DNA from: Maritimibacter dapengensis
GTDB taxonomy: Bacteria; Pseudomonadota; Alphaproteobacteria; Rhodobacterales; Rhodobacteraceae
Assembly: GCF_019218265.1 (NCBI RefSeq)
Contig: NZ_JAHUZE010000003.1
Location: 496,001-560,000, forward strand
Reading direction: 5' to 3'
Length of the DNA stretch: 64,000 bases
A model generated the notes under the pieces. The model ran no database searches. It saw nothing but the letters and a program-made list of their open reading frames with translations, and was not told the origin of the DNA. A program made the translations under genes and the position numbers. Positions 50,724 through 54,504 of the stretch are shown here, piece after piece. The stretch's first letter is position 1, and every line of letters starts with the position of its first letter.

Positions 50724-51986
50724 ATGGCAGCCCCCACCAACGCCCCCGGCGAAAACCTCCGCATCAATGGCGACCGGCTCTGGGACAGCCTCATGGAGAT
50801 GGCCAAAATCGGCCCCGGCGTGGCGGGCGGCAACAACCGCCAGACGCTGACCGATGCCGATGCCGAGGGCCGCGCGTTGTTTCAGAAATGGTGCGAGGAT
50901 GCGGGATGCTCGATGGGCGTCGATACCATGGGCAACATGTTCGCAACCCGCCCCGGCGAAGACCCCGACGCGCTCCCGGTCTACATGGGCTCGCACCTCG
51001 ATACGCAGCCCACGGGCGGCAAGTATGACGGCGTTCTCGGTGTGCTCGGCGCGCTCGAGGCGGTGCGCTCGATGAACGATCTGGGCATCAAGACAAAGCA
51101 TCCCATCGTCATCGCCAACTGGACCAACGAAGAGGGCACGCGCTTCGCCCCCGCCATGCTCGCCTCCGGCGTCTTCGCAGGCGTGCACACGCAGGATTGG
51201 GCCTATGACCGCGAAGATGCGGAAGGAAAGAAATTCGGAGATGAGCTGAAGCGCATCGGCTGGGTCGGCGACGAAGAAGTCGGTGCGCGCAAGATGCACG
51301 CGATGTTCGAACTGCACATCGAACAGGGCCCGATCTTGGAGGCCGAAGGCAAAGACATCGGCGTCGTCACCCACGGTCAGGGCCTGTCATGGACGCAGGT
51401 GACGGTGACGGGGAAAGAGGCGCACACCGGCTCCACCCCGATGCCCATGCGCAAGAACGCAGGGCTCGGCATGGCGCGCATCCTCGATCTGGTCGACGAA
51501 ATCGCGCTGTCTCATGCTCCCCATGCGGTCGGCGCGGCCGGTCATATCGAGGTGCACCCAAACTCCCGCAACGTGATCCCCGGCAAGGCGATTTTCACCG
51601 TCGACTTCCGCCACCCGGAGCTTGAGGTGATCCAGGACATGGAAAAACGGCTCGACGCGGGCGCGAAAAAGATCGCGAGCGACATGGGGTTGGAGATCGA
51701 ACTGGAAAAGGTCGGCGGCTTCGATCCGGTGCAATTCGACGAAGGCTGCGTGAGTGCCGTGCGCGACGCCGCCGAACGGCTCGGCTACAGCCATATGGAC
51801 ATCATCTCCGGCGCGGGCCACGACGCCTGCTGGATCAACCAGGTCGCCCCGACCTCCATGATCATGTGTCCCTGCGTCGATGGGCTGTCCCACAACGAGG
51901 CCGAAGACATCTCGAAAGAATGGGCCACAGCGGGCGCCGACGTCATGTTCCACGCCGCCCTCGAAACAGCGGAGATCGTGGGTTGA
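50724..51986 (+). CDS. M20-type hydantoinase/carbamoylase (probable beta-ureidopropionase)
   Basis: A 420-residue di-zinc amidohydrolase. Key segments are 'LPVYMGSHLDTQPTGGKYDG' with the metal-binding His and Asp, 'IANWTNEEGTRFAPAMLASG' with the metal-binding Glu, 'FELHIEQGPILEAEGK', and 'MDIISGAGHDACW'. The family includes allantoate amidohydrolase, N-carbamoyl-L-amino acid hydrolase and bacterial beta-ureidopropionase (PydC). Between preA and dihydropyrimidinase the last role is the best inference: N-carbamoyl-beta-alanine to beta-alanine, CO2 and ammonia. The ribosome binding site is AGGAGAG before ATG 50724. Confidence 0.88.
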   Translation: MAAPTNAPGENLRINGDRLWDSLMEMAKIGPGVAGGNNRQTLTDADAEGRALFQKWCEDAGCSMGVDTMGNMFATRPGEDPDALPVYMGSHLDTQPTGGKYDGVLGVLGALEAVRSMNDLGIKTKHPIVIANWTNEEGTRFAPAMLASGVFAGVHTQDWAYDREDAEGKKFGDELKRIGWVGDEEVGARKMHAMFELHIEQGPILEAEGKDIGVVTHGQGLSWTQVTVTGKEAHTGSTPMPMRKNAGLGMARILDLVDEIALSHAPHAVGAAGHIEVHPNSRNVIPGKAIFTVDFRHPELEVIQDMEKRLDAGAKKIASDMGLEIELEKVGGFDPVQFDEGCVSAVRDAAERLGYSHMDIISGAGHDACWINQVAPTSMIMCPCVDGLSHNEAEDISKEWATAGADVMFHAALETAEIVG

Positions 51987-52043: not shown

Positions 52044-52111
52044 GAGGTCCCGGGTCAAGCCCGGGACGGGTGGTTTTCTTTGCACCCGCCCCGGCCTTGA
52101 GCCGGGGCCTC
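52044..52111 (+). repeat. 68-bp palindromic repeat element, copy 1
   Basis: The element begins GAGGTCCCGGGTCAAG and ends AGCCGGGGCCTC. Each end is a hairpin (CCCGGGTCAAGCCCGGG and CCCCGGCCTTGAGCCGGGG), and the two hairpins are imperfect inverted copies of each other around a variable T-rich middle. Two further copies of exactly 68 bases occur at 52452 and 55725, all in the same orientation and all between genes. It is REP/BIME-like. This copy is the left flank of the GIY-YIG gene. Confidence 0.9.
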
Positions 52112-52160
52112 ACCGGTTCTCCTTCACAGATTATTAACCAGCCCTTCCTACGGTCCACGC

Positions 52161-52445
52161 ATGACGCAATGGGTCTATATAATGGCCTCCCGACCGGGCG
52201 GCGCACTCTACGTGGGTCGCACCGCGCACCTGCGCGACCGGGTCGAGGCACATCGCGCGGGGATGTCCGCGCATACGGCGAAATACAAGATAAAGACTTT
52301 GGTCTGGTTCGAACCCCACGAAGATTTCGAAGCCGCGCTCAAGCGCGAACGCAGCCTGAAACGCTGGCGACGGGCGTGGAAAGATGCGTTGATCATGGTG
52401 TCCAATCCTCACTGGCGCGACCTTGCCGCCGCGATCCCGGAGTGA
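52161..52445 (+). CDS. Small GIY-YIG nuclease-superfamily protein
   Basis: A 94-residue single-domain protein with the GIY-YIG signature in its variant form: 'WVYIMASRPGGALYVGRTAH' supplies the VYI and YVG strands, followed by the conserved arginine (LRDRVEAHR) and later glutamate (FEAALKRERSLKRWRRAWK). It is of the UPF0213/YhbQ size class, with no DNA-binding accessory domain. It is bracketed at 49 and 6 bases by two directly oriented copies of the 68-bp palindromic element. It interrupts the pyrimidine cluster, with which it has no obvious functional link. This layout suggests a repeat-associated nuclease cassette. Confidence 0.88.
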   Translation: MTQWVYIMASRPGGALYVGRTAHLRDRVEAHRAGMSAHTAKYKIKTLVWFEPHEDFEAALKRERSLKRWRRAWKDALIMVSNPHWRDLAAAIPE

Positions 52446-52451
52446 TCCGCC

Positions 52452-52519
52452 GAGGTCCCGGGTCAAGCCCGGGACGCGCAGCCTTTTTTGCACCCGCCCC
52501 GGCCCTGAGCCGGGGACTC
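52452..52519 (+). repeat. 68-bp palindromic repeat element, copy 2
   Basis: It has the same 68-base length, orientation and two-hairpin design as copy 1. Left-arm identity is complete over GAGGTCCCGGGTCAAGCCCG. The middle differs (a run of six T at 52484-52489) and the right arm carries substitutions (CCCTGAG, GGGGACTC). It begins 6 bases after the GIY-YIG stop codon, forming the right flank of that gene. Confidence 0.9.
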
Positions 52520-52542: not shown

Positions 52543-52884
52543 ATGACGACCCCCGCAGACGCCCAGGAGATCGCCCATATCAAGAGCAAGCTCGACGCCG
52601 AGATTGCGGGCTACGACCCGGCAACGGCGGATGCCGGGTTTCACGACCTGAACGCCGCGCGGTTCGCCGAGTTCAAGGCCGCGCTCATCGAACCGAAGCT
52701 GATGGAGGTGAACCTCCCCGGCGGCATCACCGACCATGCCTGGGCCGTCACCACGCCGAAGGGCCCCTACAGGGTGTTCTGGCTTCCGTGGTCCGACGTG
52801 TTCTCGCTCGCCGTCGAGAGCAAGTTCGGCCCCTGCGACATCAGCGTGCATGGCGATGCCATCGGCTGCTATGCGAGCGTGTGA
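52543..52884 (+). CDS. Hypothetical protein in the pyrimidine cluster
   Basis: A 113-residue soluble protein that I do not recognise. It has an N-terminal helical part ('AQEIAHIKSKLDAEIAGYDP', 'LNAARFAEFKAALIEPKLM') and a C-terminal strand-rich part ('YRVFWLPWSDVFSLAVESKF', 'CDISVHGDAIGCYASV'). ATG 52543 is chosen because the frame upstream merely translates the palindromic element. An AAGGCGAGGG purine run precedes it. GC content is like the genome. It may belong with the pyrimidine operon, from which the repeat cassette has partly separated it. Confidence 0.6.
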   Translation: MTTPADAQEIAHIKSKLDAEIAGYDPATADAGFHDLNAARFAEFKAALIEPKLMEVNLPGGITDHAWAVTTPKGPYRVFWLPWSDVFSLAVESKFGPCDISVHGDAIGCYASV

Positions 52885-53046: not shown

Positions 53047-54504
53047 ATGCCAACCAAAGTCATCAAAGACGGCACGATCGTCACCGCCGACCTGACCTAC
53101 AAGGCCGACGTTCTGGTCGAAGACGGAAAGATCATCGAGATCGGCCAGGGGCTGAAAGGCGATGAAACCCTTGACGCATCAGGGTGTTACGTCATGCCCG
53201 GCGGCATCGACCCGCACACCCATTTGGAAATGCCGTTCATGGGCACCTATTCCTCTGACGATTTCGAAAGCGGCACACGCGCGGCACTCGCCGGCGGGAC
53301 CACGATGGTCGTCGATTTCGCCCTGCCGAACCCCGGTGAAAGCCTGCTCGACGCCTTGAAACGTTGGGACAACAAGTCCACCAGCGCATCCTGCGACTAC
53401 TCGTTCCACATGGCCGTCACGTGGTGGGGCGAGCAGGTGTTTAACGAAATGGAAACCGTGGTGAAAGAACGTGGCATCAACACGTTCAAGCACTTCCTCG
53501 CCTACAAGGGCGCGCTGATGGTGAACGACGATGAGCTCTATTCGTCCTTCATGCGGCTCGCGGAACTCGGCGCGACGCCGATGGTGCATGCCGAGAACGG
53601 CGACGTTGTGGCGGAACTTTCGGCGAAACTTCTGGCGGAAGGCAACACCGGCCCCGAGGCGCACGCCTATTCCCGCCCGCCACAGGTCGAGGGCGAAGCC
53701 ACGAATCGCGCGATCATGATTGCCGACATGGCCGGCGCGCCGCTCTATGTCGTCCACGTCTCATGCGAGGAAAGCCACGAAGCGATCCGCCGCGCCAAGA
53801 TGCAGGGCAAGCGCGTCTGGGGTGAGCCGCTGATCCAGCACCTGACGCTTGATGAGTCCGAGTATTTCAACAAGGACTGGGACCACGCCGCGCGTCGTGT
53901 CATGTCGCCCCCCTTCCGCAACAAGCAGCATCAGGACAGTCTCTGGGCCGGTCTCGGTTCGGGCACATTGTCGGTCGTCGCGACTGACCATTGCGCCTTC
54001 ACCACCGAGCAGAAACGCTACGGTGTCGGTGACTTCACGAAAATTCCCAATGGAACCGGGGGCTTGGAGGATCGTATCCCCATGCTTTGGACCTATGGCG
54101 TTGGCACTGGCCGCCTGACGATGAACGAATTTGTCGCCGTCACATCGACCAACATCGCCAAGATCCTGAACTGCTACCCGAAGAAGGGAGCGATCCTCGT
54201 CGGGGCGGATGCCGATATCATGGTCCTCGACCCGGAGAAGGAAAAGACGATCACGGCGGACAAGCAGGTCTCCTCGATCGACTACAACGTGTTCGAGGGC
54301 AAGCATGTCAAAGGTCTGCCGCGCTACGTGCTGACCCGTGGTATGGTTGCGGTCATGGATGGCGAGATGCAGGAAAAGCAGGGCCACGGCAAATTCGTCG
54401 CCCGCGAACCCAACGCCACGGTGAACAAGGCGCTGTCGAAGTGGAAAGAACTGACCGCACCGCAGCCCATCGAACGCTCTGGCATTCCAGCGACGGGGGT
54501 GTAA
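53047..54504 (+). CDS. hydA: Dihydropyrimidinase
   Basis: A 485-residue cyclic amidohydrolase. It opens dihydrouracil or dihydrothymine to N-carbamoyl-beta-amino acids, the second step of the pathway. Metal ligands are visible: H57 and H59 (DPHTHLEMP), carboxylated K154 (FLAYKGALM), H181 (MVHAENGD), H237 (YVVHVSCEES) and D314 (VVATDHCAFT). An ACAGGAGAGGAC leader provides the ribosome binding site. It is followed after 3 bases by a VOC gene, and then by the ABC transporter genes, so transport and degradation are likely co-expressed. Confidence 0.96.
   Translation: MPTKVIKDGTIVTADLTYKADVLVEDGKIIEIGQGLKGDETLDASGCYVMPGGIDPHTHLEMPFMGTYSSDDFESGTRAALAGGTTMVVDFALPNPGESLLDALKRWDNKSTSASCDYSFHMAVTWWGEQVFNEMETVVKERGINTFKHFLAYKGALMVNDDELYSSFMRLAELGATPMVHAENGDVVAELSAKLLAEGNTGPEAHAYSRPPQVEGEATNRAIMIADMAGAPLYVVHVSCEESHEAIRRAKMQGKRVWGEPLIQHLTLDESEYFNKDWDHAARRVMSPPFRNKQHQDSLWAGLGSGTLSVVATDHCAFTTEQKRYGVGDFTKIPNGTGGLEDRIPMLWTYGVGTGRLTMNEFVAVTSTNIAKILNCYPKKGAILVGADADIMVLDPEKEKTITADKQVSSIDYNVFEGKHVKGLPRYVLTRGMVAVMDGEMQEKQGHGKFVAREPNATVNKALSKWKELTAPQPIERSGIPATGV

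Follow-up and report, generated by a model that had tools for sequence, protein, structure and literature searches.

A GIY-YIG nuclease gene between paired hairpin elements in Maritimibacter dapengensis and the hairpin brackets of its homologues in other bacteria

The window, a stretch of 64,000 nucleotides from Maritimibacter dapengensis contig NZ_JAHUZE010000003.1, carries a small GIY-YIG nuclease gene between two hairpin elements at a hyuC-hydA locus. The features are:

50724..51986, plus strand: left neighbour, M20-family hydrolase (hyuC-like), 420 aa, PF01546
52044..52111, plus strand: upstream 68-bp bipartite element with inverted hairpins at 52047-52067 and 52088-52108
52161..52445, plus strand: GIY-YIG nuclease gene, 94 aa, pI 10.3, PF01541 (E=1.6e-12)
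52452..52519, plus strand: downstream 68-bp bipartite element with hairpins at 52455-52475 and about 52497-52515
52543..52884, plus strand: small ORF with no Pfam match and an uncertain start codon, lying between unit and hydA
53047..54504, plus strand: right landmark, amidohydrolase (dihydropyrimidinase/hydA-like), 485 aa, PF01979
55725..55792, plus strand: third 68-bp element copy, flanked by ORFs for an ABC ATPase and a permease

The earlier note had described a 94-residue GIY-YIG gene between two-hairpin elements of exactly 68 bp in the same orientation. The Pfam match confirms the gene, and the two elements agree at 60 of 68 positions. Each is composed of two inverted hairpins 41 bp apart with stems of 7-8 and a loop of 5. 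The downstream element begins 6 bp past the GIY-YIG stop codon. The third copy, missed by the earlier note, has the exact 68-bp length and lies 3.2 kb downstream of the unit; the ABC ATPase and permease labels beside it were read off the ORF translations rather than taken from a family search. The pattern GTCCCGGGTCAAGCCCGGGAC, with up to 3 mismatches, occurs three times in the window and in none of 100 dinucleotide shuffles. As single-stranded DNA, the upstream element forms a single long, imperfect hairpin (z -5.35 on the plus strand, -6.62 on the minus strand). The downstream element folds as separate hairpins (z -3.12, one of 200 shuffles folding equally well).

The earlier note had also suggested a genome-wide look for the element and for small GIY-YIG genes. 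The whole genome (3.96 Mb, 20 contigs) harbors a single gene of the 94-aa GIY-YIG kind and 30 hairpins of the form GYCCCGGN7CCGGGRC, compared with one match to a reversed control pattern. Three of the 30 and one near-match flank the gene. Many of the hairpins stand in pairs or triples with starts 35-64 bp apart. The sole other GIY-YIG match in the genome is weak (E=0.019) and lies within a 676-aa frame, presumably UvrC.

The protein belongs to the GIY-YIG superfamily according to its motif with Tyr, Arg and Glu, the PF01541 match, the structural model and the fold search. An alignment of 20 rows retained the catalytic residues, the loss of which the earlier note had counted against its proposal: Y6, Y17, G19, E63 and N82 are invariant, and R27 is present in at least 90% of the rows. 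The Tyr, Arg and Glu residues are taken here to have the catalytic roles usual for the fold. An AlphaFold2 model reached a pLDDT of 96.5. Foldseek returned 1zg2 (UPF0213) at E=2.4e-4 as the sole match below 0.001, followed with weak E-values by 1ywl, Slx1 and UvrC domains. These domains share the fold but differ in sequence, with 13-26% identity in the listed alignments, and to our knowledge none is associated with repeats. Median dN/dS of the GIY-YIG gene was 0.16 (26 of 36 pairs, those with dS <2.5), which indicates purifying selection on the protein. Its sequence changes faster than that of hyuC, with a median pairwise identity of 0.62 compared with 0.77 in 14 taxa. A defence-system reading was rejected for want of a PADLOC match, and phage carriage because the homologue L091, used as query, matched neither phage records nor viral contigs.

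The repeats resemble a described superfamily. CGTC-tagged REPs carry a CGTC (or TGTC/CCTC) tag, occur mostly in Alphaproteobacteria, include the dRS3 repeats of Neisseria and RPE-4/RPE-6 of Rickettsia, and are apparently without a dedicated transposase (Di Nocera et al., 2013, PMC3733652). The majority consensus of 131 gene-flanking loop-5 hairpins, oriented by the loop, reads CGTC-stem-CTTGA-stem-CCA, the tag and tail letters holding at 50-75% per position. It shares with the superfamily the CGTC tag, a stem of 8-9, a loop of 4-5, a CCA-like tail and the inverted dimers. Both nearest hairpins could be oriented at 34 genes: they are inverted with tags outward at 22, direct at 10 and inverted the opposite way at 2. 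The window copies have a stem of 8, a loop of 5 and inverted dimers. They differ in a CCCGTC tag that partly enters the stem (CCCGTCCCGGG) and in a CTC tail. The window element is a Rhodobacteraceae-type variant of the CGTC-tagged REPs and fits the superfamily description only as a variant. The other difference is the gene: the survey found no tied transposase gene (PMC3733652), whereas a GIY-YIG gene is tied to the repeats here.

The association was followed in other genomes. A hairpin was defined as a perfect stem of at least 7 with a loop of 3-7 and at least 4 G/C in the stem, and a matched bracket as a hairpin pair at least 80% identical, one on each side within 300 bp. Of 289 alphaproteobacterial genomes scanned with a profile, 97 contain homologues, the largest number in one genome being 11. 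The set examined comprised 129 genes, namely 108 distinct genes among the matches listed (usually the best place per genome first, then further copies) and 21 places in genomes of the family; the counts omit L148 (the L096 gene), L074 (the window gene) and a fragment of 11 aa in L147. Matched brackets surround 64 of the 129 genes, compared with 10 of 8702 control positions taken from these loci. Some hairpin lies within 300 bp of 113 genes and on both sides of 76, and 65 genes have no matched pair within that distance. Hairpins number 0.65 per 100 bp within 100 bp of the gene and 0.06 per 100 bp at distances of 500-4000 bp. Ten of the 11 homologues in one genome, G320, were read (L082, L106, L109, L115, L121, L191-L195); several have different hairpin types adjacent.

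A second set of named loci from many phyla was obtained with one homologue as query and may overlap the alphaproteobacterial set. It consisted of 80 loci, 9 of which were dropped as the gene lay too near a contig end. Among the 71 with full flanks, 34 show a matched bracket, compared with 7 of 7402 controls. Bracketed genes were found in Desulfobacterota, Chloroflexota, Planctomycetota, Omnitrophota and candidate-phylum bacteria besides Proteobacteria. Ten further loci (L284-L293, with L287 the same gene as L080) were read by eye outside the counts. Stems vary between genomes yet match within a locus. Matched brackets are thus commoner by hundreds of times at GIY-YIG genes than at control positions. 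On the counts from both sets, the bracketing is real, general and not a product of chance, and the enrichment beside GIY-YIG genes that the earlier note had proposed as a check is borne out.

Short T-rich stretches follow about 10 bases past the first hairpin of each 68-bp element in the window, as would suit ordinary transcription terminators of a small foreign gene. Terminators would hardly occur upstream of the gene as well as downstream, form inverted pairs throughout the genome, or vary in their stems between genomes while the tags stay. The terminator reading is scarcely credible and is disfavoured by the both-side placement and the genome-wide copies.

A protein feature goes along with the bracket. 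Homologues with a KxWxRxWK motif, which was picked after the data and the tree had been seen, have a matched bracket in 62 of 105 cases, and those without it in 0 of 20. Any nearby hairpin was found for 101 of the 105 and 9 of the 20, respectively. The motif is absent from just 1 of 70 homologues in the named-locus set.

Repeat number was compared with gene presence in 198 genomes of the family, one per genus. A GIY-YIG homologue is present in 19 of them, at 21 places. Copies of GYCCCGGN7CCGGGRC have a median of 24 in genomes with the gene and 2 in those without (Mann-Whitney p=4.7e-8). At least 9 copies occur in all 15 genomes with a GYCCCGG-flanked gene (median 63), in 0 of 4 whose gene has other or no flanks, and in 15 of 179 gene-less genomes (p=1.7e-14 for 15/15 against 15/179), a cut-off chosen after the counts had been seen and statistics that ignore phylogeny. 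The reversed control pattern has a mean of 1.1 in the 15 GYCCCGG-flanked genomes. Two of the genomes, G009 and G049, hold only 9 and 12 genomic hairpins, two and one of which flank the gene. The dependence extends to the stem. For three stem types in 28 genomes, at least 5 copies, a cut-off also set afterwards, occurred in 6/6, 5/5 and 5/5 of the genomes predicted to have them from the stem beside their gene and in 1/22, 1/23 and 4/23 of the others. One of the last four, G001, was set aside, since its listed TCCCCGC matches form a CRISPR-like array: the hairpins at G001:C2:421757-422751 are in tandem with a 61-bp spacing.

These data bear on the idea that the nuclease is a passenger, unconnected to the hairpins, and that repeats simply mark neutral intergenic spots where small foreign genes settle. 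The patchy distribution of the gene and its location among unrelated genes would agree with it. It does not explain the matched stems on both sides, the flanking copies in the hairpin-poor genomes G009 and G049, or the lack of brackets around homologues without KxWxRxWK, though some of these have a hairpin nearby. A mere passenger is very improbable and is disfavoured by the position controls.

Copy number and gene are not strictly coupled. Hairpin-rich gene-less genomes of the family are G116 (355 copies), G010 (88), G181 (57), G105 (46) and G179 (36); the G010 assembly is 100% complete and that of G116 94%. A profile search of the 15 gene-less genomes with at least 9 copies yielded only two weak matches, one in G179 (E=5e-4) and one in G118 (E=0.005), each in a frame above 600 aa. 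Five genomes (G412, G474, G307, G399, G318) have at least 5 hairpins of a stem type borne by no gene seen there, and the second genes of G474 and G307 do not account for their TCCCCGC hairpins.

Whole hairpin-gene-hairpin units differ by presence or absence between relatives; no target-site duplication and no exact edge of an insertion emerged from the comparisons. Azospirillum lipoferum 4B has element, gene and element between sufB and sufC, 617 bp in total. In three Azospirillum relatives the two suf genes are separated by 87-129 bp that contain no unit gene and no element. Among the best 20 records listed, eleven others of Azospirillum, with the three relatives included, covered only 44-48% of the query. 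In Shinella, a relative lacks about 683 bp that include the unit and has about 116 unalignable bases in their place. A direction can be presumed for these differences; it is clearest in Azospirillum, since the relatives have sufB next to sufC. An empty-site comparison of the element at G000 C1:863711 aligned one flank only in most relatives.

The locus of the window has a history of its own. Among 17 homologue loci tested for neighbours (L037-L039 and L041 were left out), 15, namely 14 family places and L075, have hyuC and/or hydA beside the gene. Thirteen have both; hyuC is present in 14 and hydA in 14 of the 15. L036 and L040 have neither. The position of the gene is therefore not random. 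The earlier note had seen no functional tie between the unit and the surrounding cluster; the neighbours are indeed unrelated to the gene, though its placement beside them recurs.

Nineteen further hyuC-hydA loci from relatives were read by script. Gene and exact hairpins are present in two (G009, G003), and 17 lack the GIY-YIG gene; 15 of these 17 have no exact GYCCCGG-type hairpin within roughly 3 kb. The gene is thus not a fixture of the locus regardless of repeats, as one of the refuting conditions of the earlier note would have it. G487, one of the 15, has degenerate hairpins at the site. A weak protein match there (E=0.002) was rejected as a gene remnant; it overlaps the neighbouring small ORF. 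Another gene-less locus, in G486, has one exact hairpin. G490, of the same genus as the window, has a single bipartite element without a GIY-YIG gene at the very site of the window; folded within a 91-nt stretch, this element gave a z of -0.85, not distinct from shuffles. Recombination of a pair of direct elements could have left the state of G490, and the reverse event could have led from it to the full unit. From the comparison of these loci, the gene of the window subclade seldom changes place, although many genomes lack it.

Two hyuC-hydA loci, L022 (G152) and L034 (G140), have hyuC sequences 90% identical and GIY-YIG proteins 48% identical. The two proteins are from different subclades, and their presence at one site may reflect repeated insertion or replacement. 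In a test of vertical descent the GIY-YIG gene showed no congruence with hyuC or hydA (rho -0.06 and 0.08), against a hyuC-hydA control that was itself weak (rho 0.29, 64/2000). About 0.7 kb of extra coding-looking sequence stands between hyuC and the next shared genes in L127 (G485) and, after the GIY-YIG gene, in L138 (G003). This spot may therefore take up other genes too.

The residence of one subclade at one locus would also suit a housekeeping role, in which the nuclease trims or resolves fork-stalling hairpins and is kept beside the repeats because both arrived together. Purifying selection and a structure resembling the nuclease domains of UPF0213, Slx1 and UvrC point the same way. Such host upkeep is nevertheless improbable: 179 of the 198 family genomes manage without the gene, and most gene-less genomes have few hairpins to be maintained (median 2).

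A nuclease family with related properties has reportedly been described, and the finding is not wholly new in this respect. In a 2025 study in Nature Communications the Veyrier group reportedly defines Ssn as nucleases of the GIY-YIG superfamily with sequence-specific cutting of single-stranded DNA. The Neisseria enzyme is said to act at the repeat NTS and to have thousands of homologues. A frame of Neisseria gonorrhoeae, taken here to be the published Ssn, has 44.7% identity over 89% of the window protein. It lies amid ATTCCCGC hairpins of ATTCCC type with gtc/gacg ends, which are dRS3-type. This locus, L302, is at NZ_CP119140.1 1880787-1884041, in a 2.17-Mb record that is labelled a plasmid and, judged by its size, looks like the chromosome; its gene table has 12 features in all, none over the GIY-YIG frame. 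Like Ssn, the window protein is a small stand-alone GIY-YIG protein. Its gene is bracketed and 30 hairpins occur in the genome, and many cognate copies, also around the gene, are presumably a mark of Ssn systems. The window unit differs in its repeat type (GTCCCGGG/CTTGA) and in the bacterial branch, and we know of no link between units of this type and natural transformation. Among the literature matches listed, with few full texts covered, no title or abstract ties GIY-YIG proteins to REP, RAYT, CGTC or palindromic repeats.

The second comparison is with RAYTs, on which the earlier note had modelled its proposal. RAYT genes are always flanked by a pair of inverted REPs, the abundance of REPs is tied to the gene, the genes evolve fast and gene and REPs coevolve (PMC2817692). 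The GIY-YIG units resemble REP/RAYT units and REPINs in a single gene flanked by REPs, often inverted, in the inverted pair as genomic unit, and in a repeat abundance tied to gene presence, as in the copy counts of the GYCCCGG-flanked genomes. Fast evolution relative to hyuC is a further likeness. As to coevolution, the signs differ. The tree shows a weak clustering of loop class (14 changes compared with 18.6 when shuffled, 8/500 as low, one duplicate gene included). Hairpin and protein similarity did not correlate among 50 matched class genes (Mantel rho 0.009, 843/2000 permutations as high). Brackets are constant for RAYTs (PMC2817692); for GIY-YIG genes they are only common, at about half of the alphaproteobacterial genes, and outward-inverted in 22/34. 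The tag is CGTC instead of GTAG, and the gene between the elements encodes a GIY-YIG fold instead of an HUH/Y1 tyrosine transposase. The window unit is therefore not a RAYT unit. GIY-YIG enzymes are not expected to form a covalent DNA intermediate, unlike RAYTs. The anatomical half of the proposed analogy is strongly supported by the brackets, the copy numbers and the presence or absence of whole units. The functional half is less firm: the unit may work like a RAYT unit.

The unit is rather likely to be a REP-associated locus of an Ssn-type nuclease between its own cognate repeats, in which nicking of hairpins would lead to repair-driven spread of the element. This reading draws on the brackets and their generality, the stem matching within loci, the dependence of copy number on the gene, the purifying selection and the presence or absence of whole units, and further on the motif-bracket association and the Neisseria homologue amid dRS3-type hairpins. 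The protein would recognise the hairpin when the DNA is single-stranded, as in replication, repair or incoming DNA, and would nick at or beside it. Repair or recombination at the nicks would then spread, convert or delete the two-hairpin element and would sometimes move or remove the whole element-gene-element unit. The genomic two-hairpin copies would be non-autonomous offspring of the unit. On the basis of homology and of what is reported for the family, recognition of the hairpin is likely and its nicking is presumed. It is plausible that the nuclease propagates the repeats. Being hydrolytic, GIY-YIG enzymes cannot join strands, and host enzymes would be needed for that step. The hairpin-rich gene-less genomes and the fixation of the window subclade at one locus count against simple propagation. 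The explanation as a whole is further weakened by the 65 homologues without a matched pair, by hairpin similarity that is independent of protein similarity, and by the stem types that none of the genes seen in a genome bears.

The same points give some weight to a nuclease that uses the repeats without spreading them. It would cut incoming or replicating single-stranded DNA and so tune transformation or recombination, the repeats being spread by other means. The activity reported for Neisseria Ssn, the hairpin-rich genomes without a gene and the inability of a hydrolytic enzyme to join strands agree with this role. The dependence of copy number on gene presence and stem type and the differences in whole units speak against it; they are compatible with it in so far as enzyme-driven selection could keep the repeats. 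On balance, use without spread is unlikely, and the repeat-spreading Ssn-type locus is preferred.

Since many homologues elsewhere among bacteria have their own hairpins on both sides, the GIY-YIG family is probably the partner that a large class of bacterial repeats has lacked so far. A wider proposal, the prospects of which are evenly balanced, is that GIY-YIG nucleases are the missing enzymes of the CGTC-tagged REPs and form a second propagation system beside the RAYTs, unrelated in fold, across much of the bacterial domain. In such a system the enzyme would nick single-stranded hairpins and host repair would copy them, with no covalent intermediate of the transposase type. It would extend to candidate-phylum bacteria.

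The repeat-bracketed GIY-YIG family is a concrete candidate for the question raised in 2013 by CGTC palindromes, among them dRS3, Rickettsia palindromic elements and many alphaproteobacterial repeats, that apparently lack a dedicated transposase (PMC3733652). Each bracketed locus pairs an enzyme with its likely target, and the loci together make a list of candidate sequence-specific single-strand nucleases. If the proposal is true, the spread of short repeats in bacteria would have evolved at least twice, by unrelated nucleases.
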